From the NCBI GenBank assembly GCA_963575745.1, contig CAUYUJ010017789.1, positions 1-64,000 of the forward strand: a DNA stretch of 64,000 bases, written 5' to 3'. Position 1 is the first letter of the stretch. The number at the start of each line of letters is the position of its first letter. The translations under genes were made by a program, and so were the position numbers. The notes under the pieces were generated by a model. It was not told the DNA's origin and made no database searches. It saw only the letters and a program-made list of their open reading frames with translations. This DNA comes from Prorocentrum cordatum (Eukaryota; Sar; Dinophyceae; Prorocentrales; Prorocentraceae). Positions 25,140-61,679 of the stretch are shown here, piece by piece.

Positions 25140-26400
25140 CCCGTTGCGCCCGAGACATCCTCGCACCTGTCGGTTCTGAGTTGGCCAGGCTTGGGTGTTT
25201 CGCCCGAGACATCCTCCCAGCTCTGGGCTCCAGGATGCGGCGGGCGAGGTGGTCCAGCGCGTTTCGCCTGAGACGTCATCGCAACTCTGAGCTCCGAGGT
25301 GCCGCGCGCGAGGTGGTCCAGATCGTTTCGTTTGAAGCATCTCCACGCTTCTGCGCTCCGAGCTGACGCGCGCGGGGTTGTCAAGCGCGTTTCGCTCGAG
25401 AGATCCTCACAACTGGGCTCCGAGACGTTGCGCGCGAGGCGGTCTGGCGCGTTTCGCTTGAGATCTCCTCGTAAGTCTGAGCTCCGAGCTGCCGCGTGCG
25501 AGGTGGTCCGGCGCTTTTCGCTTGAGATCTCCTCGCAACTCTACACCCGAGAGGTAGTCCAGCGCGTTTCGCTTGTGCATCCTCGCAACTCTGGTATCCG
25601 AGATGCCGCGCGAGAGGCGGCTGGGCGCGTTTCGCCTGAGACATCCTCGCATCTCTTGGCTCCGAGCTGCCGCGCGCCAGGTGATCTGGCGCGCTTCGCT
25701 TGAGACCTCTTCACAGTTCTGGGCTCGAGAGGTGGTCCAGCGCTTTTCGCTTGAGACATCCTCGCAATCTGAACTCCGAGATGCTGCGCTCGAGATGGTC
25801 TGGCTTGTTTCGGTTGAGACATCCTCCCAGCTCTGGCTCCAAGACGCCGCGCGAGAAGTGGTCGGGCGCGTTCTGCCGCAGACATCCTTGCAACTCGCAC
25901 TCAGCGCTGAGAACATGTGCGCGAGGTGATCCGTTTTCCTTGAGACATCCTCACGATTCTCGGCTCCAGGATGCCGCGCGAGAGGTGCTTCGGCGCGTTT
26001 TTCCTGAGACATCCTCGACACTCTGGGTTCCGAGAGGGTTGGGCGGAGTGGTCAGACCCAAACGAACTATTTGATTACATTTCTGTTGTCGAATTGTGCT
26101 TTGGGAAGGGTCTGGGCGACGTCTGGTCCGTCCTCGCATGCCGCGTGAGACGTGGTCTGGCGCGTTTTGCCGGAGACATCCTCGCAACTCTGAGCTCCGA
26201 GATGCCGCGCGCGAGGTGGTCCGGCGTGTTTCGCCGCAAACATCCTTGCAGCTTTGTGCTCCAAGACGCCGCGCGCGAGGTGGTCCAGCGCGTTTCGCCC
26301 GAGACATCCTCGCAATTCTGGGTTCCGACGTGCCGCTTGCGAGCTGGTCCGGCGCGCTTCGCCTGAGACATCCTCGCAAGTCTGGGCTCCAAGAGGGAGG
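25140..26400. repeat. 62-64 bp satellite, about 20 units
   Basis: The unit contains CGCCTGAGACATCCTCGCAA, CTCTGAGCTCCGAGATGCCG and CGCGAGGTGGTCC. Intact neighbours at 25201, 25265 and 25329 are 64 bp apart. Units are 75-90% alike. Scattered units occur at 31800-31850, 32045-32080, 32235-32440 and 33425-33530, so LINE-A is embedded in a field of this satellite. Confidence 0.9.
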
Positions 26401-26403
26401 AGA

Positions 26404-26420
26404 GAGGAGGGAGGAGTGGT
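26404..26420. repeat. Target-site duplication of LINE-A, left copy
   Basis: GAGGAGGGAGGAGTGGT, identical over 17 bp to 31690-31706. It fixes the element's 5' end at 26421. Confidence 0.95.
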
Positions 26421-26442
26421 TCCGTAGCCATTTTGGCTCAAG
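26421..26442 (+). other. Spliced-leader sequence at LINE-A 5' end
   Basis: Matches the known 22-nt dinoflagellate SL (first base T, then CCGTAGCC, ending GGCTCAAG) at every position. It is not an SL RNA gene: no donor GT follows, and the LINE leader continues directly. Confidence 0.95.
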
Positions 26443-26624
26443 GCTAAACGTTGTGAAGGGCTATCAACGCCTGAGAATCAGCGATTAGCTTTGGACCCGT
26501 CCCCGCAGGCTGGTTCAAGCCTCCTGTGGTCACAGCCGACCACGACGTGCCTTGCACGTCTGCTTTTCGGCCACCTCGTCTGCGCGCTCGGCTGGTCTGC
26601 GCAGCTTCCGCTGCCACTGCAGCC

Positions 26625-27968
26625 ATGTCGGCCGCTGCTGCTGGCGCCGCCGCTTCGCCTGGGGGCAACAAGCGTGGCGGAAGGCAGCTGGGACGTAACT
26701 ACTCCGACGAGGCGCCGCCCAGGAAGGACATGCGCTTCGAGAGGATCGGAGCCGACGACGAGGAGGACGGCAAGGGGATGCACGAGCATGGGGCCAATGG
26801 TCGCTGCGCCGCTGCTCATGCTGCAGGTCTCGCAGACCTTGATGATGAGGAACTCTACCCCACTCTGCCTGGCGCGAAGTCACCTGCCAGCCCAAGTACT
26901 CCAACGCGGCAGGACTATGCAGGACAGGGAAATGGCGACCGTGCTGGCACTGGCGGCGCCACCCCTGGTCCCAGGCTTACGCCTCAAGTTTCATCGGCAT
27001 CAGAAGGACACACTGGCTCAACAGCTCGGGCCAGCTCGGACGGACTACCTGGACATGCCCGTGCTCAGCCTGCCGCTGCTGTTGGAGGAGACGTTGTGGA
27101 GCTCGAGCTTCGCGCATACGTGGACAAGACCCGCACTGACGTCATGGGCTCGATCCAGGCGATGCAGGCCTCGCTCACTGCCCTCTCGTCGACGATGGGG
27201 GAGCATTGCGCGAGCATCGACAAGGCGGTGGAGAAGAGGATGGTCAAGGTGGAGACGGAAGTACGTGTACATGACACTCGTATCGGCAAGCTGGAGAGGG
27301 AGGTGGAGGAGCTGCGGAACCTGCTCGGCCTCATGCGCCGCGAGGAGCCGCCCCCCAAGATCGAAGGAGGCGGGTTCGACCGCCCCGTGGATCACACGAT
27401 CATCGTGGTCAGGACGCAGGTGCCGTTGCCCAAGCAGGCCGTCGGCAACGCCCTCCAGGCGTGGATCGACGACTCGAACCTGCAGGCTGATGAATATGAG
27501 CTGCAAGGGGACGCAGTTGCTAAACGATTCCAGATTCAGATTCGTGGACAGGCTGGCTACGCGGCGCGCAAGGTCAACCAGGCCATCGGCGCGCTCAAGA
27601 TGCCAGGACGTGGTGGAGGGTGGCGTGAGTTCAGTGCCGTTCCGCCGACGGGCGGCCCTGCAGCTCGTATCAACGTCGGCCCCGACAAGAGCCCGAAGAT
27701 GGTGGCGAGGGAGCTTGGATGCAAGAAGGTGGCCAGGAAGTTGCTGGAGCTGTACCCCGAAAAGCGCTTCTTCTCGGACAAGGAGAAGGGGGTTGTCAGC
27801 ACGTCGTGGAAGGACATTGTGCACTTCTCGCCCGCGCCCGCGGGCACCGCGCCGACGATCCAGTTCAGCGATAAGAACATGGACGAGCTCGGCCTGGATG
27901 TGGCCATGGTCAGGCGTTCGGTCCACAGCATCTTCGCGGATCAGCGGGATACCGAGTGGTGTCTTTAG
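26625..27968 (+). CDS. LINE-A ORF1 protein, coiled coil plus RNA-binding-like domain
   Basis: 447 codons from the first ATG in frame (MSAAAAGAAASPGG); the frame is open 99 nt further upstream without an ATG. A low-complexity N-terminus (to about residue 150) is followed by a coiled coil (IQAMQASLTALSSTM, IDKAVEKRMVKVETEV, GKLEREVEELRNLLGLM; about residues 185-245). Next is a domain starting HTIIVVRTQVPLPKQ and containing RFQIQIRGQAGYAARK, compatible with an RRM-like fold, and a basic tail. This order is that of L1-type ORF1 proteins, which coat the element RNA and carry it back to the nucleus. It ends DTEWCL with TAG at 27968, overlapping the possible ORF2 start by 71 nt. Confidence 0.75.
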   Translation: MSAAAAGAAASPGGNKRGGRQLGRNYSDEAPPRKDMRFERIGADDEEDGKGMHEHGANGRCAAAHAAGLADLDDEELYPTLPGAKSPASPSTPTRQDYAGQGNGDRAGTGGATPGPRLTPQVSSASEGHTGSTARASSDGLPGHARAQPAAAVGGDVVELELRAYVDKTRTDVMGSIQAMQASLTALSSTMGEHCASIDKAVEKRMVKVETEVRVHDTRIGKLEREVEELRNLLGLMRREEPPPKIEGGGFDRPVDHTIIVVRTQVPLPKQAVGNALQAWIDDSNLQADEYELQGDAVAKRFQIQIRGQAGYAARKVNQAIGALKMPGRGGGWREFSAVPPTGGPAARINVGPDKSPKMVARELGCKKVARKLLELYPEKRFFSDKEKGVVSTSWKDIVHFSPAPAGTAPTIQFSDKNMDELGLDVAMVRRSVHSIFADQRDTEWCL

Positions 27969-30900
27969 CCGGCTGTTCAAGGCCTGGCAGACCGGCTCCT
28001 CGAGCCGCCTTTCGATCACGATCACTACTTGGAACGCCAGGGCGCTGTTGCACCACGACCTGCCGCTTCGCAGTAAAAAGATTCGGTATCTTGGGACCCT
28101 TCTGGCTTCGAACACGATCCTCGGGCTTCAGGAATGTCATGGGACTCTGGCCGAAGCGGAGGAAGAGTTGCACCAGCTCCATAAGCCTGTCAAGATGTTT
28201 CACTCGTTCTTTGACGACCCAGAGCGCACGAATGTAGGAGGCCTCCTCACATTCTTTCCAGTCTTGGGTGCGCACGCTCGGTTTGAAGTAAGGGACGATT
28301 TTGCTCCTGGGAGGGTCCTGAACGTCAAAGCTATACTGGACGAGTCTGGGGACTGTTGGATTTCGCATTGGAATGTCCACAATTTTGGCCTGTCTCGGGA
28401 GGTTCGTCTCAGGGTAGTTCGAGAGATTGAGCGCGATTTTGAACGAGCTCGTGCGGCTCCTGAATGTGCCCTAGTTATCTTGGCTGGGGACTTTAACATG
28501 AGTGAGGCTCCTCCGATGCCGTCGGTGCCGACGGAGACGTTCCAGCCGCATTTTGGCTACCACGAGTGGCGCGCGGGCAGGGGCAGGATCTGGCAGGGGC
28601 TGTTTTCCAAGATGGTTGAAATACAACAAGAAGATCCTACTCACTACTGTCTAGCTAACGATTCGACCAACATTATCGACCGCATCTTCGCGTCGGTTCC
28701 AGGGTGGGGCCTTATTCAGTTGAATGCCCTGGGGATGACCAAGGACCAGGTCGAGGTTCTCCACCACTTAGAGCTCTCTGATCATACCCCCGTCTCCGTG
28801 GACCTCAAGGGTGCCCCGCAGGTCTTGCCTAAGGATCGCCCCATTCCTAAGGAGCTCTTCGCTACTAGCTACTTTCAGGACTTCATGCGTGCGTACTTGG
28901 GAGCTGTGTCTGATTGGGACGAGCTTTCGCCGCCGCTGAAGATAGACCTGTACAAATATCTAATGACGGAAGGTGCTAAGTTTGCTAGGAATGCCATACT
29001 ACGTTTTGAAAGTCACGGTCGGCTGGGGCGCATTATCTTATATCGATCAGTGGCTAGAGCAGTCTGGCGACAAGATAGGAAGCTTGGCACCATCCTACTC
29101 CAGGCACATGTGGCGGCACGCAGTCTCATGCAGATAGATGCCGACTCAGGTGTGCTCTCTCTGTGCGACCCTGAGCGCTTCGCCAGGGAATTAGACCAGT
29201 TGCAGACCGACGATCTCGAGGCCAAACGAACGAAGATAGCCAACACAATCACTGACGACACTCCCGACAAACTCCGACGAAAGCGAAGACAGCAAATGAA
29301 ACGACTCCAGAAAAGAGCTTCGATTTGGGCCCCGTTCGATCGTCGACTGACGCTCAAGGGTATCAGGCTCCCGTCGAACGAGATCGCGACGCAGCCTGAG
29401 GAGATGTCTCGCGAGATCTGCGGGTACTGGGGCACCGTTTTCAGTAAGAAGCAAATCGCTACGAAGTCTGGGGAAAAGTACTTGGGGAAGTTCGGGGGCC
29501 AGATGGATTTCTCAGATATCCCACCGCCTACGCTTTCGGGGATGAGAGCTCGGATCCAAAAGCTTGAAGACTGTGCCCCTGGCCCAGACCGTCTTCCTTA
29601 TGCTGCTTGGAGGCACGGCCCGATGGCGGCAGAGCTGTTAGATGAGTACCTTTGGTGGTTGATGGAGGGGAACTCGCCGATGTCGTCCTTCAATGCTGTT
29701 TTGGGGATCTTCATTCCGAAAGGGGAGGAGGAGGGAGATCAGGGAGGAGCAGTTCGTGATGTACAGTCGCTTCGGCCCCTCGGGCTGAAGAATTCTGAGA
29801 ATAAGATTCTCGCGGGCGCCGTGACCCGGCCCTTCGCAGTCAAGATGGCCGAAGTCAGTTGCACGCTCCAACGAGGCTTCACGCTTGGTAGGCAATTCGG
29901 CACCAACATTATAGAACTGGACACCTACGCCAGGATCGCGTCTATGTCCCCCACTGCCGACTCCGACCTTCCCGCGATCCTCTCCTACGACTTCTCCCAG
30001 GCCTTCCCCTCTGTCTCCCACGAGTGGCTCCGGATGGTACTTGAACGTCTCTCTCTTCCACCTCCCCTCCTCTGGTTCTTCGCCATCCTTTACACGAATG
30101 TCCAGTGCTATGGTGTTCTTGGGGGCCAGATGCTTTGGTTATTCTCGATACGGTCTGGAATCATCCAGGGCTGTCCTGCAAGTGGAGCTCTGTTTGCTGC
30201 CGCGTTGAACCCGTTCTTACTGGACTTTAAGGCTGAATTCGTTGACAAGTATCGAGGAGTGATGTTTGCGTGTGCAGATGACCTGGGGGCCGTTATACTG
30301 AATATGAAATATCTTACCGTGCTCTACCGCGTGTTCCGCATGGCCCAGCTGCTGGCTGCGCTCATCCTTAAGGTATGTAAATGTCACATTACTCCTCTTG
30401 CTGGTGCGTTTACCCCAGAACTTGCTGCTCGGTATGCTGCTGCAGTGGCTTCTCTGGTCCCAGCCTGGGCTGACTTTGTGGTGGTCCCGAACCTGAAATA
30501 CCTGGGGATGTGGGTGGGCCCGAATGCGTATCTTAAATCCTGGATGGCGCCGAGGAACAAGTACCGCCACCGCAGCAACATGCTTTCAGGTGCCAATGCT
30601 CCCACGGCTGTCACGGCCAACCTGTACTCGGCGCGCTGTGCCACGACACTCTCGTATGTGGCCCAGTTCTGCCCTCCGCCGCCAGAGATGTTGGCACAGG
30701 AGACCTCGACGCTGGCCAGAGTTTTCCATTTCCCACATTGTGCGTTGAGCAGGGCAGGGTGGTTTGCCATGAACAAGTGGGGCGGCCCCAAAATCCCGTC
30801 GGTCACTGTCGTCTCCTATGCTGCTCATGCTCGGGCTGCTCTGTCCACGTTCGACGGGACGTGGCAGAAGATGTATAGGCTGCTGCAGGAGAAGGCATAC

Positions 30901-31641
30901 TTGGCCATCCCGATCGCCGAGATCTGCCGAGGACGGCTCTGGCCTAGCTTTTGGGAAGACCCTGCGTATTGTCAATACCTCAGGACGGCGTCTCTCGGGT
31001 ATCCTGCAGATAAACGACATGCTCTGATGGCCCCTGGTTTTGAACAACTTCGAGGACTGTTTTCTGAGCAGCACCGTGAGGCCCGCGAGGGCCGTAGAGG
31101 AAAGCGAATTCGGATTCAGCGATCTCTTACCGAAGCCTTTACCAATTCGATGTTCCCGAGCGAGGCCCTGAGATCCCTTTTCCTCCGTAGGCTCCACGAT
31201 TGGTTCCCTGAAGAAAGGGACCGAATCTCTAGGATCGACTGGACGGCCGTGAGTGCTGCCATGTCGAGGCTAAAAACTGCCCATGCGTTTTCCCTGGTTC
31301 GGACGCTTAGCAAAGCCTGGCTGACCCAAAACCGTTTTCAGAAGCTTGATTCGACCTGCTGCGTCGGATGCGCAGCCCCTGACTCGATCAATCACTACTG
31401 GATGTGCCCGCTTTTTCGGGAGGCCGTCCAAGATATATTGGGGGTGCGGTTCGGGGAGGGGTGGGATGGTCTCGATCTTCTCGGGCTTCTTGAGCCCTGC
31501 TGGGAACGCTTCAAAATTCCCGTCTGTTTTTGCTTGCTTTTCAATGCAGCTCGCGCTCGGAGGGCCCAGCTGCTGCGTGCTCTTCGTCCTGAGGAGCTCA
31601 AGGCGCTCCTGCCTGTCGTCAGCGTCCAGCTGAGGCGCTGA
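27898..31641 (+). CDS. LINE-A ORF2: EEP endonuclease and reverse transcriptase
   Basis: 1247 codons from the ATG at 27898, which lies inside the end of ORF1 in the +1 frame. The EEP endonuclease motifs are all present: TTWNAR (residue ~43), LGLQECHG (~75), LAGDFNM (~195), IIDRIF (~259), LSDHTPV (~295). Reverse transcriptase follows: RPLGLKNSENKI, motif A ILSYDFSQAF (~696), motif B SGIIQGCPASGALF (~755) and motif C FACADDLG (~791), where Ala precedes the catalytic Asp pair. A Cys-Cys-His-Cys knuckle (CCVGCAAPDSINHYWMC, ~1154) is near the C-terminus. No RNase H. It would nick target DNA and prime reverse transcription there. The frame also stays open upstream to 26491 across all of ORF1, so frameshift translation cannot be excluded. 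Confidence 0.9.
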   Translation: MWPWSGVRSTASSRISGIPSGVFSRLFKAWQTGSSSRLSITITTWNARALLHHDLPLRSKKIRYLGTLLASNTILGLQECHGTLAEAEEELHQLHKPVKMFHSFFDDPERTNVGGLLTFFPVLGAHARFEVRDDFAPGRVLNVKAILDESGDCWISHWNVHNFGLSREVRLRVVREIERDFERARAAPECALVILAGDFNMSEAPPMPSVPTETFQPHFGYHEWRAGRGRIWQGLFSKMVEIQQEDPTHYCLANDSTNIIDRIFASVPGWGLIQLNALGMTKDQVEVLHHLELSDHTPVSVDLKGAPQVLPKDRPIPKELFATSYFQDFMRAYLGAVSDWDELSPPLKIDLYKYLMTEGAKFARNAILRFESHGRLGRIILYRSVARAVWRQDRKLGTILLQAHVAARSLMQIDADSGVLSLCDPERFARELDQLQTDDLEAKRTKIANTITDDTPDKLRRKRRQQMKRLQKRASIWAPFDRRLTLKGIRLPSNEIATQPEEMSREICGYWGTVFSKKQIATKSGEKYLGKFGGQMDFSDIPPPTLSGMRARIQKLEDCAPGPDRLPYAAWRHGPMAAELLDEYLWWLMEGNSPMSSFNAVLGIFIPKGEEEGDQGGAVRDVQSLRPLGLKNSENKILAGAVTRPFAVKMAEVSCTLQRGFTLGRQFGTNIIELDTYARIASMSPTADSDLPAILSYDFSQAFPSVSHEWLRMVLERLSLPPPLLWFFAILYTNVQCYGVLGGQMLWLFSIRSGIIQGCPASGALFAAALNPFLLDFKAEFVDKYRGVMFACADDLGAVILNMKYLTVLYRVFRMAQLLAALILKVCKCHITPLAGAFTPELAARYAAAVASLVPAWADFVVVPNLKYLGMWVGPNAYLKSWMAPRNKYRHRSNMLSGANAPTAVTANLYSARCATTLSYVAQFCPPPPEMLAQETSTLARVFHFPHCALSRAGWFAMNKWGGPKIPSVTVVSYAAHARAALSTFDGTWQKMYRLLQEKAYLAIPIAEICRGRLWPSFWEDPAYCQYLRTASLGYPADKRHALMAPGFEQLRGLFSEQHREAREGRRGKRIRIQRSLTEAFTNSMFPSEALRSLFLRRLHDWFPEERDRISRIDWTAVSAAMSRLKTAHAFSLVRTLSKAWLTQNRFQKLDSTCCVGCAAPDSINHYWMCPLFREAVQDILGVRFGEGWDGLDLLGLLEPCWERFKIPVCFCLLFNAARARRAQLLRALRPEELKALLPVVSVQLRR

Positions 31642-31689: not shown

Positions 31690-31706
31690 GAGGAGGGAGG
31701 AGTGGT
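31690..31706. repeat. Target-site duplication of LINE-A, right copy
   Basis: Identical to 26404-26420 over 17 bp. Confidence 0.95.
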
Positions 31707-43984: not shown

Positions 43985-44190
43985 GCATGCCGGGCGTTAT
44001 GGCCCCCGCCGCCCCCCCCATCCCCCCATTGACGCAACGGTCCCCCCCCAGTGCGCTCTGGGCACTGCCACCGTGCGCATCGGGATCCGCAAAGATGTAG
44101 GAATCCGCATCGGATTCTGGTCCGCGGTCGTCGTCGTGGTCGTCGTCGTGGTCGTCGTCGTGGTCGTCGTCGTCGTCGTCGCTCGTCGCT
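43985..44190. repeat. Dispersed repeat interrupted by LINE-B, left part
   Basis: Contains GGCGTTATGGCCCCCGC, TTGACGCAACGG, CAGTGCGCTCTGGGCACTG, GCATCGGGATCCGCA, GATTCTGGTCCGC and then (GTC)n. The same series is found uninterrupted at 56938-57235. Its right part resumes at 50768, after LINE-B. Confidence 0.85.
44175..44190. repeat. Target-site duplication of LINE-B, left copy
   Basis: GTCGTCGCTCGTCGCT, identical to 50768-50783. The target is itself repetitive, so the duplication could be a few bases longer or shorter. Confidence 0.85.
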
Positions 44191-44212
44191 TCCGTAGCCA
44201 TTTTGGCTCAAG
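44191..44212 (+). other. Spliced-leader sequence at LINE-B 5' end
   Basis: Exact 22-nt match to the dinoflagellate SL, immediately followed by ATG (44213-44215). That ATG opens the ORF2 frame. Confidence 0.95.
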
Positions 44213-47200
44213 ATGGTCACTGCCCGTGGCAGAGCACGGAGACCCTTGGTCCAGGGCCAGCTAGAAGGACTAAGCTATCACGCCTTCCTCGCGCCCGCGA
44301 GGTCGAGCTTCATATCCCGGCCGAGGCCGATCCCATCGCTCCCATGGCTCTTGGCGGCGGTGGTGGTGGCGAGTGCGGCAGTTTCGTACGGCGTCCATGG
44401 GCAAAGGTGTGGCCCTGGCGTCAGCAGGAGAGAGGACGGAAGGCATTCTGTCAGCAGTGTTGCGCTTGGCTGTTCATGGACAGGCTCGCGGACGCTGACT
44501 TCAAGTGCAAGTGCGGCGCCAGCAGCTGGGGGGCGGAGCCATCAGGAGGAGGAGCACCAGATCGTTCGCAACGTGACGGAGGCTTCGACGACTGGGGCTG
44601 GCCAGTCCTCGGAGCAGGGCGTGGCAAAGGCAGGCGCAAGGGTACTGGAGGAGGAGGTGATCTACAGCGGCCAGGAGGTTACGGAAATCAATCTGGTGGT
44701 GGAGGCGGCGGCAAGGATGACAAGGTGGCCGAACTTCTCGCACAAGCAGCAGCACTGGCTGGCGACGGCGCTTGGAAGCAGAAGATCGAGGCCCTACGCG
44801 CAGAGGCAGCACCACATCCACCAGCAGTTCAGCATCCACAGCCTGGATCCCGTCAGGCGCTCAGAGCAGCAGAAGATCGAGTACAAAAGGCACAGAGTGC
44901 GCAAACGAAGGCCTATCGCCGCCGAGAAAGGCTTCGAGAAGAACTCAAGCAAGCGGAGGATGACTTCAAGCAGCGCAGTGCAGAAGTGGCGGCGGCAGAG
45001 GCAGAGGTCAAAATCGAACTTCAGCGACATCCCCTCGGAGGCGACCTCAAGTGTGACGGGGCGCAGAACGCGAAGAAGCAGCGCGTGCTGCCCCTGGGCG
45101 CCCTCCTGGAGGACGAGGAGATCGACGTCGACCTGGGCAGCCTCTTCGAGTGCGCGAGCGACGACAACATCTCGGAGGCGGACAAGCAGGAGCTCGAGAA
45201 GAGGAAGAAGCTCTTCCTGGAGGCCGCGAAGGGAGCGGCGAAGGAGGCCTTCGCACAGGCGGCAGCTACACTCAAGCAGCAGAAGCAGCAGGAGCAGGAG
45301 TTCCTGGATCGGATTCGGAAGAAGCGCAAAGCGGACGCAGCCGAGTCTGAACTGGACGGAGCTGAAGCTGGAGCATCGGGAGGAGCGCCAGCGTCAGGCG
45401 GACCCCCTGCAGCTGCAGTGGGTGGGGCTCCACCAGCAGCGGCACAGCCAGCAGCAGCGGCAGCACCCGAAGCAGCAGCGCTATCCGAGAAGGAGGCGAA
45501 GGAGAAGCGTGAGCTGGCGGCAGCGGTCGAGGCCGCAAGGGTCGCAAACGCAGCTGGGCGAAGGGGTACGGCGAGCTCCTAGCCATACGATTTTCACGCA
45601 GAACTTGTCGACCTGGGGGCCCAGGTTGAAGAAGAAGATCGACTCGCTCAGGGACGACGTGATTATCTTCCCTGAGACGCACGTCGGCGCCGACGGCACG
45701 AACGAGATCGTCGAGCACCTGGACTTCAGGGGCTTCAAGGCGGTGGTCACGCCGTCGGTCAAGAACAGGCGGAGTGAGTTGGCAGGCGGCATCGGCATGG
45801 CCATGAGAGGTTTCTTGTCAGTGACGTCTATGCGACACTTGGCAGCGAAGAAGGAGCAGGCAGTGGGGATGCGGTATCTGGACGGCGATTGGGAGCCAGG
45901 GCCGATCGACTTCCAGGACATGGTAGCAGCGCAGTGGCGGTGGCGCGGGCAGTCGGTCCTGGTCATCGGCATGTACCTCACGTCGTCTATCGGCATGAGC
46001 GGCGAGAACCACCAGAAGATGGCGCGCCTCGCGGCGCTCACGCGCGGCCACAGTGGGCCGTGGGCTGCGATAGGCGACTGGAATGCGGAGCCGAGGGAGC
46101 TCCAGGCGGCAGGGTGGTTAAGACTGCTCGACGCGAAGGTGATCACGCCAGCTGACGTCAGCTACACGTGCACGCGCAACCCTGCGCGCATGCTCGACTA
46201 CGTGGTGTGCTCGGAGACGTTCTCGATGATCGTGGATAGAGTTGATACAGATCGCCATGACCCTGGGGATCACTACGGCGTACGAGTCCACTTGAGGGGG
46301 GACTCGAGGATCGCGATGCAGCGCAACCTGCAGCTCGCGAAGCCCTTTCCCTTGCCAGATATGCCGAAGCGGAAGGCGGACCCGAACAGCAAGCGGTCCA
46401 GGCAGAAGGCGAAGAAGCAGAGCGAGTACGAGGCAGGTGCGTTGAGCGCTGCGAGGAATGCGGAGGCCCCGCCCTCCTCGGAGCCCTCCCTCCCCAGGTT
46501 TGATCGAGGCGAGCGGAAGAAGGACGTGGTCGTCTGCGAGGCGGTGCCGCAGGAGTGCCAGCAGCAGAGCGAGCTGGCGGAGCTTTTCGGCGGGAGCAGC
46601 GACGAGGACGGGATACTCAGCGAGAATGAGGAGGCCTCGGAGGAAGCTGTCGCCGAGCCGAAGGCGGACGAGATCTTCGACCTGGAGATCGAGAAGCGCA
46701 ACCTCCTGTGGCACGAGAAGTACCGCACGGCAGTCGCCGAGGACCGCATCGCCTGGAGGCAGCCAGCGCAGTACGTGAAGCAGACGCTTGCCTACACCTT
46801 CGACGAGGAGGGGGCACGCGAGCTTGGGGCACGCTACGGCGCCTGGGTGCACGCGGTGGAGCAGTACTACATGGCGTCTCTACAGATCAAGGCCGAGGAG
46901 CGCAGCATCTACCTCGGGCGCGGCGAGGAGGTCAGGTTCAAGAAGGGCAAGACCAAGCTCGGCATCGGCGTCAGCGCCGACCTGGATCAGTCAATCAGGT
47001 GGTGGGGCACGCTGGCGTCGTACCTGGTCGAGCTGCAGCGCTGCGAGGGCAAGGGGCAACGAGCGCAGCGGCTACGTGACGACTGCAGAGCACTCAGCAG
47101 CACGATGCCTAGTGGCGGCGTCATCAAGATGACAGCGAAACAGAAGAGGAAGTGGCGAGTGGCTCTCAGCGGCATACGCGGCATGTCCAATGTGCAAGTG

Positions 47201-50200
47201 CAGCACCTCGGCGTGGCCGCGCTCACCACAGCAAAGAAGGGTAAGCGCACGGAGGTTGGCGAAGCTTTGCTGGCCTACACTAATTGGGTGCAGGAGCAGG
47301 AAGCGGCAGGCAGCGGCAAGTTGCACCGCAAGACGAAAGACAAGCCGAGGTGTGACAATGAGGTGCGCAGCCAGGGCGTCACCGCATCGGACATGGTGGA
47401 GTACATGGACGCGAAGGGCGCGGTGTGGAGCAAGAAGTGGAAGAGCAACTTCAGCACGCAGGCAATCGTGCAGCGCCTGGAGCAGTCTCGGAAGGTGGCC
47501 ACGGAGGAGGACTGGGCGCCCATCACCATCGAGAGCCTCAACGTTGCCATCGACACGATGGCGAAGAGCAAGGCGAAGGGCGTAGAGCAGATGGGCGCCC
47601 TGGCTTTCAAGTGGTTGCCCCCAGAAGCCAGGGAGGAGTTGCGCATCATCATCGAGGAGGTCGAGCGCACTGGTACATGGCCGTGGCAGCTGATGGTCAC
47701 GCTTGTCAGCTTGCTGCGCAAGGATGCAGGAGGAGACAGGGCGATTGGGCTGCTGCCCGAAGTGGTCAAGCTCTGGTCCAAGGTGCGAAGCGAGTTCACC
47801 AACGAGTGGGTCGTCGCCATGGCGGGGAAGTGGGATGCAGCGATCGCGGGGAACAGTGCTCTCAAGGAGGCCCTGGTTCGCTCCTTCTCCGACGAGGTGA
47901 TAGAGTGGATGCCAGTGAAGATCTACTCGGTGACAGCGCTGTGGGACCTGGCGGAGTTCTACGACACTCTAGAGCCCCTCCTCATCCTGGACGAGGGGCT
48001 CAGGCTGGGGCTTCCAGCCCGCACTCTGCACCTGGAGGTGCTGAGCCACCTAAGTGCACGCCTCATCAGAGAGAGGACGGCTTACGCAGAGCCGATCGCG
48101 CCCGACAGGTCCATCTGCGCGGGCGCGAGGCGGGGCATCGACTTCGGTAGGGTTGCGCTTTACGCCGTGCTGGAGCGGGTGAGCACAAAGTACGAGCAGG
48201 TACGAGTGCGATCGTGGGTCGACGACGTCACGACGAGGATGGAGGGCTCCAAGAAGGAGGTGATCAAGCAGTTGACGGGCGCGGGCGTGGAGTTCGCAGC
48301 TGGAGTGAAGAAGTCAAAGCTGACGCTCTCCACCAAGTCGGCGCTGATCGGCAACGACATGGACGTGGTGAAGGAAGTGGCCCTCAAGCTGAGGGCGCGC
48401 ATGATAACGGTGAAGGTAAGGAGTCAAGCGCCCGACTTGGGCATCGACCGAGGCCGCAGCATCGCGGGCGGCAAGGGCAAGCACGCGAGGAGGGCGGCGC
48501 ATGCAGACAGACAAGTAGCGCGCACCCTGAAGATGGCGCGAAGTGGCAGGCGCGCCAGAGGCGGCGCACGTGCAGTGGTGCAGCGCGGGTCCTTGCCGCG
48601 CGCCGCCTACTCGTGCAAGGTGTTCGGGATGGCACCCAGCACCGTGCTGAAGTGGAGGAGGAGGCTAGCAGCGACCATCGCCCCGAGGCTGCGGGGGAGG
48701 TGCCTCACGACGCTGCTCAGCATCGAGATTGCGAAGGGGGACCCCGCGTTCGGAGCCGTTTTCGCGCTGCTGGACTCGTGGATGCACATCATCAGCGACA
48801 AGTTGAGGAGGCAGAAGGTCAGCATCATCTGGCCGCGGATCGTCGAGAAGGTGTCGAAGCTGGACCCGAAGAAGCGCTGGAAGGGTGTGACGGGCATCAC
48901 CAGGGCGATGGTCAACACCCTGCTGGACTTGGGCTGGTCCATGCTGGGGCCGCGGCACTGGGTCTCGGACGACGGCGAGGAGTTCGGCAGCGACGACCCC
49001 TCGGCGCTCGACGGCGGCGTGGACACCAGCGACTTGAAGCAGGCGATCGCCAGTACTATTGAGAGGAAGCAGTGGCAGCAGGCGGTCAAGCACTACGCGG
49101 GAGGCGGCATGGAGGCGGGCGCGGACACGCGCTCAGCGAGGTCGCTCATCAAGAAGCTTAAGAGGAAGGGCGAGCACGACAAGGTCGGCGCGCATTTGGC
49201 GTGCTTGACGGGCGGAGTCTGGCCGAGGCAGCGCGTGGCAGATCTCGGGCTGGAGATCGAGGATGTCACGTGCCCGCGTTGTGGCGAAGCACCAGAAACC
49301 TGGCAGCACCGCATGTGGGAATGCAAGTGTAACGAGCTGATCGAGGAGTGCCAGAAGTCCAAGCACCTAGAGGAGAAGGCCGTGAGGGGCGTCGAGGAGG
49401 TGCCGTGCCTGTGGCTCAGAGGCATTTTGCCGAAGAGCTGGACGCAGATCCCACCCCCGCCTGAGCCAGGGACAGAGATGTGGGAGCAGTTCGGTAACCT
49501 GGAACGTCTCAGGGTCACTGCCCCCTCAGGCACGCACCGCCCACCCTCCCAGCCCGTTTGGCAATGGAGGGCAGGGAGTACCGACCTGGGGGAGGCCAAC
49601 CCTGTGGACGACGGTGGCTGGCTCATTGCTGCAGGCGACGCATCGGGCGGCGAGTACACCATGGACCCCAGGCTGAGACGGGTGGCTTGGGGCTGGGTTG
49701 TGATGCAGCCAGAGAACGTGAACGAGCCGATGGTGGTGGCAGGAGCGCGTGCCGCTCTGGGCGGCTGGCGGCAGAGCGTCAACCGCGGCGAGCTGACGGC
49801 GCTGAAGGAGCTGATGGTGGCCACCGCCAACTACAAGAGAGTGCAGTACATTGCGGACTCGTCCTACGTCATGCGCGGGGTCGAGAAGTTACGCAGAGGG
49901 AAGATGCCCAAAACTCACATCGACTTATGGAACGAGCTGAAGGTGGCCATGGTCGGTAGAGAGCTGTGGATGATCAAGGTCGAGAGCCACATGTCCGCGG
50001 TCGAGGCAGTGGCGGCAGGCATCGACCCGATCAGCTACCTGGGCAACTCGTTAGCGGACAGCTTCGTGGACGGCATCATCGAGCGGGTGCAGGTGGCGCG
50101 CGGAGACGCACTCAGGGTCGGCTGGTGTGACGGGATCGCCTCGCTGATCAGGAGCAGAGGATACGCGACTCTGATGGCGGCGATCGAAGTGGAGCCGTCG

Positions 50201-50683
50201 ATGGCGCCAAGCAGACCACAGCGCCACGAGGCGTACCTCAAGAAGCAGAGGAGGAAGGAGCGTCTCACCAACACGCAGCACGTGATCGAGGAAGTCAACG
50301 ACGGCAAGCAGTTCCGCTGCACGCGGTGCGGGAGCCTGGTGCCTGTCGTTGGCGCGGACACAGACAAGTGGCTGGAGGGCAAGTGCGTGAAGCTGGTGCG
50401 CGAGCAGGCGTCGGAGTTCGGCGCCTCGTCCCTGGGTGTGCAGGTGGGCCACCAGAGGGCGCACCCCTCCCACCAGCTGAACTACAACGAGGAGCTCGGC
50501 CTGCACTACTGCCTCAAGTGCGGGTGCATCGCACGGGAGAGCATGCGTTCACTCGCGATGGAGTGCGGGGAGCTGAAGCAGATGGGCAAGCAGAATCTGT
50601 CGCAGATCAAGAAGGGGCTCCAGCCGGGCACGAGCAAGTTCGCGCGGGACTGGAACCGCAAGAAGAAGGAGGCGCTGGGTTGA
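44213..50683 (+). CDS. LINE-B ORF2 frame: EEP endonuclease, reverse transcriptase, RNase H, zinc motifs
   Basis: The frame is open for 2156 codons from the SL-adjacent ATG; roughly the first 455 codons overlap ORF1 out of frame. Enzyme domains by residue: EEP ~461-690 (FTQNLSTW, FPETH, AIGDWNAEP, LDYVVCSE, DHYGVRV). RT: WDLAEFYD (motif A, ~1243), AGARRGIDFGRV (motif B, ~1305), RSWVDDVTT (motif C, ~1335; Val before the Asp pair). CPRCGEAPETWQHRMWEC knuckle ~1686. RNase H with the Asp-Glu-Asp-Asp set: IAAGDAS (~1807), NRGELTAL (~1858), YIADSSYV (~1880), GNSLADSF (~1945). C-terminal paired CxxC (CTRCG ~2036, CLKCGC ~2100). The last ATG before the EEP domain is at 44960, well inside ORF1, so normal initiation near the EEP start is unlikely. 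Confidence 0.9.
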   Translation: MVTARGRARRPLVQGQLEGLSYHAFLAPARSSFISRPRPIPSLPWLLAAVVVASAAVSYGVHGQRCGPGVSRREDGRHSVSSVALGCSWTGSRTLTSSASAAPAAGGRSHQEEEHQIVRNVTEASTTGAGQSSEQGVAKAGARVLEEEVIYSGQEVTEINLVVEAAARMTRWPNFSHKQQHWLATALGSRRSRPYAQRQHHIHQQFSIHSLDPVRRSEQQKIEYKRHRVRKRRPIAAEKGFEKNSSKRRMTSSSAVQKWRRQRQRSKSNFSDIPSEATSSVTGRRTRRSSACCPWAPSWRTRRSTSTWAASSSARATTTSRRRTSRSSRRGRSSSWRPRRERRRRPSHRRQLHSSSRSSRSRSSWIGFGRSAKRTQPSLNWTELKLEHREERQRQADPLQLQWVGLHQQRHSQQQRQHPKQQRYPRRRRRRSVSWRQRSRPQGSQTQLGEGVRRAPSHTIFTQNLSTWGPRLKKKIDSLRDDVIIFPETHVGADGTNEIVEHLDFRGFKAVVTPSVKNRRSELAGGIGMAMRGFLSVTSMRHLAAKKEQAVGMRYLDGDWEPGPIDFQDMVAAQWRWRGQSVLVIGMYLTSSIGMSGENHQKMARLAALTRGHSGPWAAIGDWNAEPRELQAAGWLRLLDAKVITPADVSYTCTRNPARMLDYVVCSETFSMIVDRVDTDRHDPGDHYGVRVHLRGDSRIAMQRNLQLAKPFPLPDMPKRKADPNSKRSRQKAKKQSEYEAGALSAARNAEAPPSSEPSLPRFDRGERKKDVVVCEAVPQECQQQSELAELFGGSSDEDGILSENEEASEEAVAEPKADEIFDLEIEKRNLLWHEKYRTAVAEDRIAWRQPAQYVKQTLAYTFDEEGARELGARYGAWVHAVEQYYMASLQIKAEERSIYLGRGEEVRFKKGKTKLGIGVSADLDQSIRWWGTLASYLVELQRCEGKGQRAQRLRDDCRALSSTMPSGGVIKMTAKQKRKWRVALSGIRGMSNVQVQHLGVAALTTAKKGKRTEVGEALLAYTNWVQEQEAAGSGKLHRKTKDKPRCDNEVRSQGVTASDMVEYMDAKGAVWSKKWKSNFSTQAIVQRLEQSRKVATEEDWAPITIESLNVAIDTMAKSKAKGVEQMGALAFKWLPPEAREELRIIIEEVERTGTWPWQLMVTLVSLLRKDAGGDRAIGLLPEVVKLWSKVRSEFTNEWVVAMAGKWDAAIAGNSALKEALVRSFSDEVIEWMPVKIYSVTALWDLAEFYDTLEPLLILDEGLRLGLPARTLHLEVLSHLSARLIRERTAYAEPIAPDRSICAGARRGIDFGRVALYAVLERVSTKYEQVRVRSWVDDVTTRMEGSKKEVIKQLTGAGVEFAAGVKKSKLTLSTKSALIGNDMDVVKEVALKLRARMITVKVRSQAPDLGIDRGRSIAGGKGKHARRAAHADRQVARTLKMARSGRRARGGARAVVQRGSLPRAAYSCKVFGMAPSTVLKWRRRLAATIAPRLRGRCLTTLLSIEIAKGDPAFGAVFALLDSWMHIISDKLRRQKVSIIWPRIVEKVSKLDPKKRWKGVTGITRAMVNTLLDLGWSMLGPRHWVSDDGEEFGSDDPSALDGGVDTSDLKQAIASTIERKQWQQAVKHYAGGGMEAGADTRSARSLIKKLKRKGEHDKVGAHLACLTGGVWPRQRVADLGLEIEDVTCPRCGEAPETWQHRMWECKCNELIEECQKSKHLEEKAVRGVEEVPCLWLRGILPKSWTQIPPPPEPGTEMWEQFGNLERLRVTAPSGTHRPPSQPVWQWRAGSTDLGEANPVDDGGWLIAAGDASGGEYTMDPRLRRVAWGWVVMQPENVNEPMVVAGARAALGGWRQSVNRGELTALKELMVATANYKRVQYIADSSYVMRGVEKLRRGKMPKTHIDLWNELKVAMVGRELWMIKVESHMSAVEAVAAGIDPISYLGNSLADSFVDGIIERVQVARGDALRVGWCDGIASLIRSRGYATLMAAIEVEPSMAPSRPQRHEAYLKKQRRKERLTNTQHVIEEVNDGKQFRCTRCGSLVPVVGADTDKWLEGKCVKLVREQASEFGASSLGVQVGHQRAHPSHQLNYNEELGLHYCLKCGCIARESMRSLAMECGELKQMGKQNLSQIKKGLQPGTSKFARDWNRKKKEALG
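44344..45582 (+). CDS. LINE-B ORF1 protein, zinc-finger-like and coiled coil
   Basis: 412 codons from MALGGGGGG; the frame is open upstream into the SL but without an earlier ATG. Near residues 35-65 is a Cys cluster (CQQCCAWLF, then FKCKCGAS) that could bind zinc. Gly-rich linkers follow, then a long charged helical part (RERLREELKQAEDDFKQRSA; LEKRKKLFLEAAKGAAKEAF) consistent with a coiled coil, and an Ala/Pro-rich C-terminus. It has no sequence likeness I can see to LINE-A ORF1. The expected role is binding the element RNA. Confidence 0.7.
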   Translation: MALGGGGGGECGSFVRRPWAKVWPWRQQERGRKAFCQQCCAWLFMDRLADADFKCKCGASSWGAEPSGGGAPDRSQRDGGFDDWGWPVLGAGRGKGRRKGTGGGGDLQRPGGYGNQSGGGGGGKDDKVAELLAQAAALAGDGAWKQKIEALRAEAAPHPPAVQHPQPGSRQALRAAEDRVQKAQSAQTKAYRRRERLREELKQAEDDFKQRSAEVAAAEAEVKIELQRHPLGGDLKCDGAQNAKKQRVLPLGALLEDEEIDVDLGSLFECASDDNISEADKQELEKRKKLFLEAAKGAAKEAFAQAAATLKQQKQQEQEFLDRIRKKRKADAAESELDGAEAGASGGAPASGGPPAAAVGGAPPAAAQPAAAAAPEAAALSEKEAKEKRELAAAVEAARVANAAGRRGTASS

Positions 50684-50767
50684 GTTGCGCGCCGTTTGCG
50701 CGCCGCTCTCGCCCTCCGCACTGCCCCCAGCCTGGGGGACCAGCGCCGCAGGCCAGGTCTTACAAAA

Positions 50768-50832
50768 GTCGTCGCTCGTCGCTCGTCGCTCGTCGCTCAT
50801 CGTCGTCGTGCGCGCGTGCGCGGTTGGAACCT
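50768..50832. repeat. LINE-B right TSD and right part of the interrupted repeat
   Basis: 50768-50783 repeats GTCGTCGCTCGTCGCT. Then CGTCGCTCATCGTCGTCGTG and GCGCGCGTGCGCGGTTGGA continue the host repeat, as at 57172-57215. Confidence 0.85.
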
Positions 50833-50839
50833 GTTTTTT

Positions 50840-51439
50840 CCCTACCTAGGCTCTGCCTAGAAGGGTTCTTACTCTCTTTGCTTAAAGGGGCCGGGCAGTG
50901 TTCCCCGCCCCAGGCGGTTCCCCCAGGATCCGCCCCGCGGTTCCCCCAGTTACGTCCCCTTAGTTTAGCGTTGCTTATATCATCTTAGCTTAGCTTGTTT
51001 CATCTTAGCTTAGCTTAGCTTCATTTTAGCTCAGGTTTATCTTAGCTTACCTTCATCTGAGCCTCGCTGAGCTTTAGCATAGCATAGCACAGCATAGCGT
51101 AGCATAGCATCGCGCAGCATAGCATATCATAACATAGCCCATCATAGCATAGCATAGTGCAGCATAGCATAGCATAGCACAGCCTAGCATAGCTGAGCAT
51201 ATCTTAGCATAGCTTAGCATAGCTTAGCTAGCACAGCGCAGCATGACATAGCATAGCTTAGCATGTCATAGCATTACATAGCATATCATAACATATCATA
51301 GCTTAGCGCATCATAGCATAGCATAGCATAGCGCAGCATAGCGCAGCATAGCATGGCATAGCATAGCATAACATAGCATAGCATAGCATAGCATAGCAGC
51401 TAATGCTGCTTTTCTAGGGGCTCCAACTTCTAGGTAGGG
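50840..51439. mobile_element. AGCAT-rich inverted-repeat element, copy 1
   Basis: 600 bp between perfect 10-bp inverted ends CCCTACCTAG and CTAGGTAGGG. Left part: GCTCTGCCTAGAAGGGTTCT, AAGGGGCCGGGCAGTG and CCCCAGGCGGTTCCCCC. Then a TTAGCTTAGC stretch, and about 330 bp of AGCATAGCAT satellite up to 51400. Right part: TAGGGGCTCCAACTTCTAGG. Copy 2 lies at 59071-62533. No ORF. Confidence 0.75.
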
Positions 51440-56649: not shown

Positions 56650-56937
56650 CCATGCGGCAGAAGTTCGCTTTAAATAAGGCGATTGGCAAATGGCGCACCC
56701 TATTCTGGACAGGGCGCGCTCTTTCTGTGGTAACAAACGTGACTGTGCAGGCCAGCGAAAAACAACTGCCCCGAGAGAACCTGTAGACGACCCAGAGGAG
56801 CTGACGCTGGATCAAGGCGGTCCTCGGAACGGCCCAAAACGCCCCACGAAACGGCCCCAACACAGCCGTAAGAAACACACCAAGCGACCCCAGTACGTCC
56901 ACCAAGCATACATGAGCCTGTTTCTGTATAGCTTGGG
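56650..56937. other. Flank of the gene copy, no feature
   Basis: Short ORFs only. It may contain the 3' UTR of the copied mRNA. Confidence 0.4.
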
Positions 56938-57083
56938 GAATGACGGGCGTCATGGCCCCCGCTGGCCCCCCCACCCCTTATGACGTAACGCTCCCCCCCA
57001 GTGCGCTCCGGGCACTTGCCGCTGTGCGCATCGGGATCCGCATTGGTGTCCGCATCGGAATCCGCAAAGGATTCTGGTCCGCA

Positions 57084-57163
<80 letters not shown>

Positions 57164-57235
57164 TGTGCTCGTCGCTCGTCGCTCATTATCGTCGTGCGCG
57201 CGGACGCGGCTGGAGCCTGTTTTTTTATTCTCTTG
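56938..57235. repeat. Dispersed repeat with (GTC)n, uninterrupted copy
   Basis: The same series of segments as 43985-44190 joined to 50768-50832, but without LINE-B. (GTC)n runs from about 57088 to 57165, then CTCGTCGCTCGTCGCTCATT and GCGCGCGGACGCGGCTGGA. Confidence 0.85.
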
Positions 57236-57284
57236 CACAGCTGTGCTCTAGAGCTCGGACCTCTTTAGTTTCGTTCGTCGTCGT

Positions 57285-59058: not shown

Positions 59059-59575
59059 ATAAGCATTTTCCCCTACCTAGGCTCTGCCTACAGGGTTCTT
59101 AGTCTATTAGCTTACCAAGGGGCCGGGCAGTGGGCTTCGCCCCAGGCGGTTCCCCCGGTCCCCGCCCCGCGGTTCCCCCAGTTGCGCCCCCTTCCCTTAG
59201 CTTTGCGTATCTCATCTCAGCTGAGTTTAGCTTAGTTAAGGTTATCTTAGCTACATCTTAGCTTCGCTTAACTGTAGCTTAGCTTCGCTTCGCTTAGCTT
59301 AGCTTACCATATCATAGCATAACCCAGCATATCATAGCATAGCGCACCGTAGCACAGCATAGCATATCATAGCATAGCACCGCGCAGTATAGCACAGCAT
59401 AGCGCAGCATAGCATAGCCTACCATAGCCTAGCATAGCATAGCGCAGCCTAGCGTAGCATAGCATAGAGCAGCATCGCGCAGCATAGCATCGCATATCAT
59501 AGCATAGCATAGCATAGCATAACATATCATAACATAACATAGTGGAGCATCGCAGAGCATGGCATAGCATAACAA

Positions 59576-59743: not shown

Positions 59744-59765
59744 TCCGTAGCTATTTCGGCTCAAG
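59744..59765 (+). other. Spliced-leader copy with two substitutions
   Basis: 22 nt matching the SL except C to T and T to C in the centre (CTATTTCGG instead of CCATTTTGG). It is followed after 33 nt by the ATG of the next gene, as in a mature trans-spliced mRNA. Confidence 0.9.
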
Positions 59766-59798
59766 CCCGGAGGCCCTGCCACACAGCCGCCCACGCTC

Positions 59799-61679
59799 AT
59801 GTCCCGAGGTTGGCGGAGTGAGGCTTTCAGCGGTGCTGCGCAGCCCGCCTCGGCACCAGGTGGTGCTGCACAGCCCACCCCGCCTGTTGTGGCCATCGAT
59901 GTGGGCGACGTCGCGTCCAAGCGGAACGACGATCAGCGGGTTAAATGCAGCGAGATGTACGCGGCTGTCGAGGAGGGCTTCTGGGCGTTCGTTGTGCTCT
60001 TTGTGGCTGAGTTCGGCTTTCAGGACATGCGTTTCATCAGTCGCACGACGCGGGGCACGTGGCGCTCGCGCCATGCCCGCCTGGGGAGGGTAGAGGCGTG
60101 GGTCGTCAGGCTGATCTGGAGCACAGGCTTGCTCGAGATGGGGATGCCTGAGGCGAACATCCATTTGACGTCTGAGAAGAGCGGCCTGGCTGGTAAGGGC
60201 GTTGCTTCTCGGGACTTGCAGCTGACCCACATGATCGACAACGATCTCGAGTGCTTGTGGAGTGTCTTCAATGTCTTGAACGACCGAGCTGGCAACTCGG
60301 GCCTGTCGATCAGGCGGAGCTAGGGCCGCGTCATCCAGCGCATGCGCCTCCGCCCTGCGCGCAGCCGGTGGTGGCGTAGTGAAGACGACGACTGTCTGGA
60401 GAGGTGCAACTCGTGGTTCGAGCATGCCGAATATTTCCAGCTGCAGCCGCTGGACATCTGGGATGAGTTGGCGCAGCTCGGGCCGCCGGCGATGCCCCGC
60501 CCCGCGTCGCGCCGAGGCGAGCCCTTGACAGCGGCGGAGGTGATCGATCTGTGTAAAAGCGGCGGTCGCCGCGAGCCTAGGCGCACGCGCGGCCGCGTGC
60601 GCCATCGTCGCGGCGACGACGATCACGATCATGCTGATGATTCTCGCCGAGTTGAGGCCAGGCGCCGCAGGGGCGGCGGCGCTGCGCAGCCCGCGTTCCC
60701 GGCAGGGCCACGCAGCGCCAGCGGGGATGCGTCGGTGGCGCCGCGCAGCCCACCTTGCCGCGCAGCGAAGCGTCCCTCGCGCGAACAGGATGCGAAGCGT
60801 ATCCGAGTTGTCTACCGAGGCGAAGTTCTACGCTCTGCGCCATCCAAAGATGTTGGGCCTGACAAAGACATCACATTGGAAGATCTCGAGGACGTCTTTA
60901 ACTCCGACAAGACCATGATAGTGGACACCCTGTCTGAGCCTCGCATCGATTTCGCCTTAGTGGCAGATCTCTCCGATGGCAGGATCGCCCAGATAACCTT
61001 GGCAAATATGGCGAGTGCTGCACTGGCCGCTCCGGTCGCCTTCCACTTCTCGGCCAGGGGTAGTTGCCAGATCCAGACGTTCAAACCGGTTATGGACGTT
61101 CTCCAGAAGGCCTGCGACTTGGTTCGCTATTCCCACGTGCTCTTCACGCGGTTTGATGCAGAACCCCTGTCCAGCGTCGTCGCAGAGTGGATGGAGCCAA
61201 ACCTTGTGGCCCCGTTCTATCAGACCTGGCGCAAGGAGATGAATGACGTCATCTTCGCGTTGCCTGCTTCTCGGTTCCTGGGCGCGTGCGAGCGCGCGAG
61301 TGAAAGGGCGCCGGGCCCCGCCCGCGCGGGCGCCGGGCCCCCGCAGGGCGAGGTCCAGGTCGAGGACGCCCCGCCGAGCCCCCGTCGAGGACGCCCCGTC
61401 GAGCTCGAAGGCCGAGGCAGAAGCAAAAGCAATAGAAAACAACAAAGGCAATGCAAAAAAAAACGAGCTCAAAGCAAACGCGACAGCAGCGGCGAGGGGA
61501 CACAACTCCCCGCTAACGCCCAACCGCCGACGTTATTTTCCCTTAACTTCCTCCCGCGGCCTGTTGAGACGCTAGCACCGACACTCAAGCCCCACCAGCA
61601 CTGCACTCGACTAGCATCGCGCCCTCGACCAGCGCGTAGAGCCCGAGGTCACTACAAAGCGCCCCACGACCAGCACTAG
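59799..61679 (+). pseudogene. SL-headed gene copy, GAAQPA-containing protein with one in-frame TAG
   Basis: The ATG at 59799 opens 174 codons (SGAAQPASAPGGAAQPTPP near the N-terminus, then MYAAVEEGFWAFVVLF and RLIWSTGLLEMGMPEANI) to a TAG at 60321-60323. The same frame goes on for 452 codons: CNSWFEHAEYFQLQPLDIWD, a basic His/Asp/Arg-rich region, GGGAAQPAFPAG, ITLEDLEDVFNSDKTMIV, ITLANMASAALAAPVAFH, WMEPNLVAPFYQTWRKEM. After about 61255 the peptide becomes low-complexity and the natural C-terminus is uncertain. No introns and an SL just upstream indicate a reverse-transcribed mRNA. The TAG may be a mutation of CAG. The family is not recognised, but it shares the GAAQPA blocks with the genes at 1-930 and 2402-4586. 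Confidence 0.7.

Follow-up and report, generated by a model that had tools for sequence, protein, structure and literature searches.

The window analysed here, a 64,000-nucleotide stretch of Prorocentrum cordatum DNA (contig CAUYUJ010017789.1, positions 1 to 64,000), contains a retrotransposon of the kind without long terminal repeats (non-LTR), a long interspersed nuclear element (LINE) that we call LINE-B. It occupied 44191–50767, was bounded by identical 16-bp repeats, and opened with the full 22-nt dinoflagellate spliced leader (SL), TCCGTAGCCATTTTGGCTCAAG, at 44191–44212. An identical SL at 26421–26442 opened a second element, LINE-A; these and the other annotated parts of both elements given below lie on the forward strand. 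Across the host genome, the SL recurred at the very start of the element at dozens of separate insertions, in three element types, which upheld the original prediction that coincidence was untenable. From the DNA borders, it is very likely that these LINEs move as SL-trans-spliced RNA.

The 5′ target-site duplication of LINE-B (44175–44190), GTCGTCGCTCGTCGCT, matched its 3′ counterpart (50768–50783) at 16/16 positions and adjoined the SL directly. The SL ran without a spacer into an ATG (44213–44215) in the frame of the second open reading frame (ORF2) and not of ORF1. The exact SL at the border, the duplication preceding it and the ATG fused to it had all been claimed before and were borne out, and the SL-ATG was in the ORF2 frame in 8/8 close copies. 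The window scan detected the exact SL 21-mer at 44192–44212 and 26422–26442, each preceded by the T that completes the 22-mer; SL matches expected by chance were 0 in 100 shuffles, which ruled out a chance origin of the SL at the borders. Because the LINE-B flank is a trinucleotide repeat, its duplication was given a control test, in which 399 other upstream points were compared with the 3′ flank; none reached at least 16 nt, and the longest match was 14 nt. The same control was uninformative for LINE-A, whose own repeat (26404–26420, again at 31690–31706) measured 17 bp while other upstream points gave up to 23 nt; this flank is repetitive and is not independent evidence. The joined LINE-B flanks aligned through 56910–57240, a related but empty target site that holds neither SL nor LINE and whose GTC repeat is 22 columns longer at the junction. 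For LINE-A too, a comparable empty relative of the target was seen by eye at about 25990–26180, backed by a blastn stretch.

The proteins closest to those of the window were from P. cordatum, at 98% identity. Copies were sought in the 4.13-Gb host assembly. For the LINE-B border query, the best 40 of 543 candidates, the window's own copy included, were all read. The SL was exact in 25/40 of these LINE-B-type copies and had at most one mismatch in 35/40, and ATG followed it directly in 37/40. Their 20-nt flanks comprised 35 distinct sequences, so that the same insertion may have been counted more than once in a few cases. A longer leader between SL and ATG, which had been named in advance as evidence against the arrangement, was found in two copies only, and in both the added segment was a 15-nt relic of an SL truncated after nucleotide 7. 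L009 carried the SL, then an exact SL(8–22), then ATG; L049 carried the same series in decayed form; and L045 was too decayed to tell. The first SL base was T in 37/40, C in 2/40 and A in 1/40 copies, and it was G in two LINE-A loci. Only the C is unexpected, since T, A and G are all on record as first bases (PMC7245778).

The 3′ ends of seven close LINE-B copies were fetched, and six of the stretches reached the end of the element (that of L006 missed it). These six ended like the window copy, whose 3′ untranslated region (50684–50767) terminates in ACAAAA. Exact duplications of 16–17 nt were present in L007, L008 and L011. L005 and L009 lie in repeats, where the duplication length cannot be told. 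The script found no duplication in L010, although by eye an 18-nt repeat was visible, with extra T after it on the 5′ side.

LINE-A was searched with a query lacking the SL, and loci were given for 30 of the best 40 of 410 candidates, the window's included. The SL was exact in 18/30, had at most one mismatch in 23/30 and at most three in 27/30, with 24 distinct flanks. By eye, L091 of the other three looked truncated at the 5′ end of the SL, and L092 and L079 looked rearranged. The LINE-A leader (26443–26494 in the window) is about 50 nt long and nearly invariant in the 30 loci. A conserved hairpin is predicted in it, with the last four SL bases paired in the stem; this is a predicted fold, with almost no covariation among the loci. 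In 27/30 loci, no frame was free of stops over roughly the first 45 nt, the window's LINE-A being among the three exceptions, which indicates that the leader is mostly non-coding and that the SL-ATG fusion is not general. Many of the loci L071–L100 matched the LINE-A query over the first 50–80 nt only, through this near-invariant 5′ module.

A third type, LINE-C, was recognized in L052, L053, L057, L062 and L065, which matched LINE-B over about the first 130 nt only. That match takes in the leader segment common to both types (44213–44320 in LINE-B, about 36 codons), which reads MxxxRGRARRPLVQGQL...RSSFIS in the ATG frame and is 67.6% identical between LINE-B and LINE-C (L052) over about 36 amino acids (E 7e-8). 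Comparison of ORF2 was made with one LINE-C copy, L052, whose ORF2 frame matched LINE-A (25.8% over about 400 amino acids, E 4e-26) and gave no match to LINE-B apart from the N-terminal peptide. A leader of LINE-B type thus heads an ORF2 of LINE-A type in LINE-C, owing either to exchange or to a deep common origin of the leader. The original prediction had called the two window lineages unrelated and independent. The LINE-A and LINE-B proteins indeed do not align; LINE-C nevertheless links both types, and the claim of independence is weakened by it. That some known family of RNAs lies near the LINE-B leader was considered and dropped, as an Rfam scan of 44100–44500, a segment outside which the LINE-A leader lies, gave three matches, all far below gathering scores.

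The coding content of LINE-B comprised ORF1 (44344–45582, 412 amino acids), which has WPWR and a Cys-rich N-terminus and stands one frame behind ORF2, and an ORF2 frame open from the SL-ATG for 2156 codons (44213–50683). An APE-like endonuclease region was located at 45581–46282. Its Exo_endo_phos match was present in 7/7 A1 members with a best E of 1.1e-5, P0001 itself remaining below the curated cut-off. RNase H (49769–49999) was detected by Pfam in 5/7 A1 members, P0001 again falling below the curated cut-off, and was matched by profile to RNase HI in PDB. Putative reverse transcriptase motifs were seen at 47945–48226, with D1245 in motif A and VDD (1336–1338) in motif C; D1245 and D1338 were invariant across seven sequences. 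Both RNase H and the VDD loop of the original prediction were therefore observed, the reverse transcriptase from its motifs alone, with no detection by Pfam. The PDB profile search with LINE-B returned 29 RNase H sequences plus a weak proteasome match, with no reverse transcriptase, and the structure model of the reverse transcriptase was poor (pLDDT, the predicted local distance difference test, 44). A protein search with ORF1 gave no match. With the APE-type endonuclease and the variable target-site duplications found and the reverse transcriptase putative, LINE-B is classified from its sequence as a non-LTR retrotransposon. In LINE-A, ORF1 spanned 26625–27968, and the ORF2 frame with APE and reverse transcriptase spanned 26428–31641 (RVT_1 in Pfam; L1 and R2 structures by profile).

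The original prediction also held that the acceptor site may itself set which protein is made, and this was not settled. In its favour, 44213 was the only ORF2-frame ATG ahead of ORF1, and there was none from the ORF1 stop to the start of the endonuclease, the next (45797) lying inside the domain. The SL-ATG frame was stop-free over the 562 codons read, into the endonuclease, in 8/8 close copies, the window's included. Of 32 more distant copies, 20 were read, chosen after their 5′ ends had been seen and with L045 and L049 left out; ATG followed the SL in all 20. The endonuclease motif was in the ATG frame in 9/20, and no stop preceded it in 7 of these 9. It stood at codons 422–446, compared with 463 in the window LINE-B; as its position shifts and it is still in the ATG frame, the overlap has changed in length and the frame relation has been kept.

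In all three types, LINE-A, LINE-B and LINE-C, ORF2 lay in the +1 frame relative to ORF1. Across ORF1, the ORF2 frame had 0 stops in LINE-B, LINE-A and LINE-C (L052), where synonymous shuffles gave means of 4.9, 6.9 and 5.1; the fractions of 5000 shuffles as stop-poor were 0.0006, 0 and 0, respectively. Six control windows in ORF2 cores showed 11–22 stops in the +1 frame. Between the window copy and L067, ORF1 showed a codon-position coding signature, and the ORF2 frame was open in L067 and L008 despite an interrupted ORF1 frame. At 44513–44963, it was the ORF2 frame, and not that of ORF1, whose codon usage lay nearer to that of the ORF2 core. The SL-ATG is likelier to be the start of ORF2 than not, and a role of the acceptor site in setting that start is plausible; both are unproven.

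The cycle that we propose begins with an ordinary SL-trans-spliced mRNA of host type, which would be the mobile RNA of LINE-B; trans-splicing of its precursor is suggested by the DNA borders. Target-primed reverse transcription would copy the spliced RNA to its cap, so that a full-length daughter would begin with the SL. An SL-bearing genomic copy could then be transcribed and spliced again at the internal AG (nucleotide 7), giving SL + SL(8–22), and since copies of this structure exist, SL-bearing copies can be sources. Usually, splicing would occur at the AG that ends the genomic SL and would regenerate an identical 5′ end with no trace, a route to which the rarity of relics (2/40) points. 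The SL would then be an acceptor that travels with the element, which may need no separate promoter. With the leader of the B/C type, ORF2 would be started at the SL-ATG as the first AUG, and ORF1 would be reached by leaky scanning to 44344. This last step is the least certain, and our high confidence covers movement as trans-spliced RNA and not the ORF2 start with leaky scanning. A wider picture, which we offer tentatively and would not call probable, is that these LINEs ceded their 5′ end to host trans-splicing. The genomic SL would be the next acceptor, a self-renewing and promoter-independent front. In the B/C type it would be welded to an ORF2 start read through ORF1 in the +1 frame, and SL plus leader would form an exchangeable cassette on two ORF2 lineages.

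Several results weigh against this account. The LINE-B border query contained the SL, which biased the search toward SL-bearing copies, and substitutions in the SL common to copies do not separate renewal from inheritance. Over 1900 nt, the ATG frame was stop-free in 6 of the 20 distant copies and had stops in 14. The remaining non-ORF1 frame was also stop-poor (9 stops against a mean of 14.5 in LINE-B, 12 against 20.7 in LINE-A), so the ORF2 frame shares part of its shortage of stops with this other frame. With a stricter shuffle keeping codon-junction dinucleotides, the LINE-B fraction rose to 0.18, which is not unusual, while that of LINE-A (0.0035) was still unusual. In the overlap, comparison with L067 showed ORF1 position 3, which is ORF2 position 2, to be the most variable (89/131 in one stretch); by this one comparison, the residues that the ORF2 frame would encode across ORF1 seem not to be conserved. 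The ORF1 frame was interrupted by one stop in L008 and three in L067. The ratio of nonsynonymous to synonymous substitution (dN/dS) of the leader codons was lowest in the ATG frame in just 2/5 comparisons. LINE-A starts with the SL and lacks an SL-ATG in 30/30 loci, which speaks against a start-codon role. The apparent lack of conservation, the 0.18 fraction and the LINE-A arrangement all tell against the claim about the acceptor site.

The SL could have been gained once, long ago, and inherited as fixed element DNA, with transcription starting at or before it and no trans-splicing now. The same kind of leader follows the SL in nearly all copies and the tandem occurs in only two of the 40, as such inheritance would have it; yet L009 and L049 carry SL + SL(8–22), as expected from a fresh splice, the SL is identical in LINE-A and LINE-B though their proteins do not align, and the variation at its first base is mostly that seen in host SLs. 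We regard a single ancient gain as unlikely. The copies could instead be dead on arrival, processed like host retrogenes while a hidden SL-less master is active. Dinoflagellate host mRNAs are retroposed with their SL in the same manner (PMC6050394, PMC7245778), but the tandem of SL and relic requires an SL-bearing source, and all eight close copies keep the ATG frame intact as far as they were read. As the sole kind of copy, dead-on-arrival copies are rejected by L009 and L049, and we give the idea as a whole little weight.

SLACS and CZAR are trypanosomatid LINEs that insert site-specifically into SL RNA genes. An element of this type would explain an SL sequence at the border; the flanks, however, are mostly microsatellites, with 35 and 24 distinct sequences, and the empty target has no SL. 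For the copies read, these flanks and the empty target refute insertion into SL RNA genes, and we assign it next to no probability. In the 5′ flanks of L004–L011, L019–L050 and L071–L100, the target senses were opposite: LINE-B/C lay mostly in TCC/TCG/TCA microsatellites and LINE-A mostly in GGA/GAG. A pyrimidine-rich upstream target as the source of the splice signal was dropped as not general, because the repeats upstream of LINE-A are mostly GGA/GAG. A closer contest concerns the ATG. The SL-ATG may be incidental, ORF2 being reached by +1 frameshifting from ORF1 or by reinitiation and the leader being conserved as RNA or DNA and not as protein. The +1 relation in all three types, the LINE-A copies without an SL-ATG, the seemingly unconserved overlap residues and the mixed leader dN/dS fit such a scheme. 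The direct ATG in 37/40 copies, overlaps that differ (about 422–463 codons) while the ATG stays in frame with APE, and the leader peptide shared by LINE-B and LINE-C in the ATG frame do not. We take an incidental SL-ATG to be a serious possibility, somewhat short of even. Movement as SL-trans-spliced RNA is the reading that we retain.

Other sequences bearing on the SL or lying near LINE-B were noted. The window scan gave a third SL 21-mer at 59745–59765 with two mismatches, part of a decayed SL (59744–59765; both changes are transitions) that heads an older, retrocopy-like stretch. In 59744–61679, one frame follows this SL, interrupted once by an in-frame TAG (60321) and with no Pfam match at E 0.01; the stretch may be an older SL-headed copy of something else. 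The non-coding block 3′ of LINE-B (50835–51330) recurs at 59066–59571 with 78% identity. In other contigs, an AT-rich, giant-virus-like one (L001:2746–2913, minus strand) was seen by eye to carry two exact dinoflagellate SLs, the second at the head of an open frame richer in GC, an arrangement that would fit the entry of a trans-spliced dinoflagellate cDNA into a viral genome. L003 (4334–4354, minus strand), a contig binned as bacterium, shows by eye an exact SL followed by GTACG between what look like rRNA genes of the large and small subunits; this may be a gene for SL RNA within the ribosomal DNA spacer of an alveolate. A further contig binned as bacterium (L002:32–52) has a TCA microsatellite at its start, then an exact SL and then bacterial-looking genes; it is a chimera or contamination. 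Related loci in viral contigs were not found by the patterns used.

LINEs that open with a complete SL indicate that LINE-type machinery handles trans-spliced RNA to its cap, and the SL could also count the cycles of each element. DinoSL-tagged retrogenes were reportedly described by Slamovits and Keeling in 2008, a work cited in PMC6050394 and PMC3229502. In the available parts of the open-licence literature, we found no account of LINE copies whose 5′ end is the SL. The abundant SL-tagged retrogenes of dinoflagellates are described in several papers (PMC3229502, PMC6050394, PMC7245778, PMC12014239), as is a relic SL truncated after nucleotide 7 (PMC3229502); the retroelement behind them was called unknown, with LTR elements favoured (PMC6050394). 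Our LINEs resemble these retrogenes in the genomic SL at the 5′ end and in the tandem of SL and nucleotide-7-truncated SL that marks repeated cycles. They differ in that the retroposed RNA appears to come from the LINE itself: long open frames and target duplications are present, and the SL forms the 5′ end of what looks like an autonomous element.

Addition of the host SL to transposon RNAs is reported from other organisms. In Hydra the SL is present on about 30% of transposon reads (PMC12220107), and in C. elegans the full-length 8-kb RNA of Cer1 is the one that is not trans-spliced (PMC3315495). Those cases were shown at the RNA level, and the parts available describe no SL at a DNA border, whereas ours is read from DNA. 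In Symbiodiniaceae, LINE-mediated insertion of RNA-virus fragments was proposed (PMC10235124), which likewise assigns the insertion of SL-bearing RNAs to LINE machinery; there, relic SLs are near viral genes and not at LINE borders, and the LINEs are called common non-active remnants. The trypanosomatid L1Tc/ingi elements are also LINEs in a polycistronic, SL-trans-splicing host and have a short conserved 5′ module common to several elements (PMC8190864). In them, Pr77 supplies promoter and ribozyme and the transcripts are unspliced, whereas in LINE-A, LINE-B and LINE-C the 5′ end is the SL itself.

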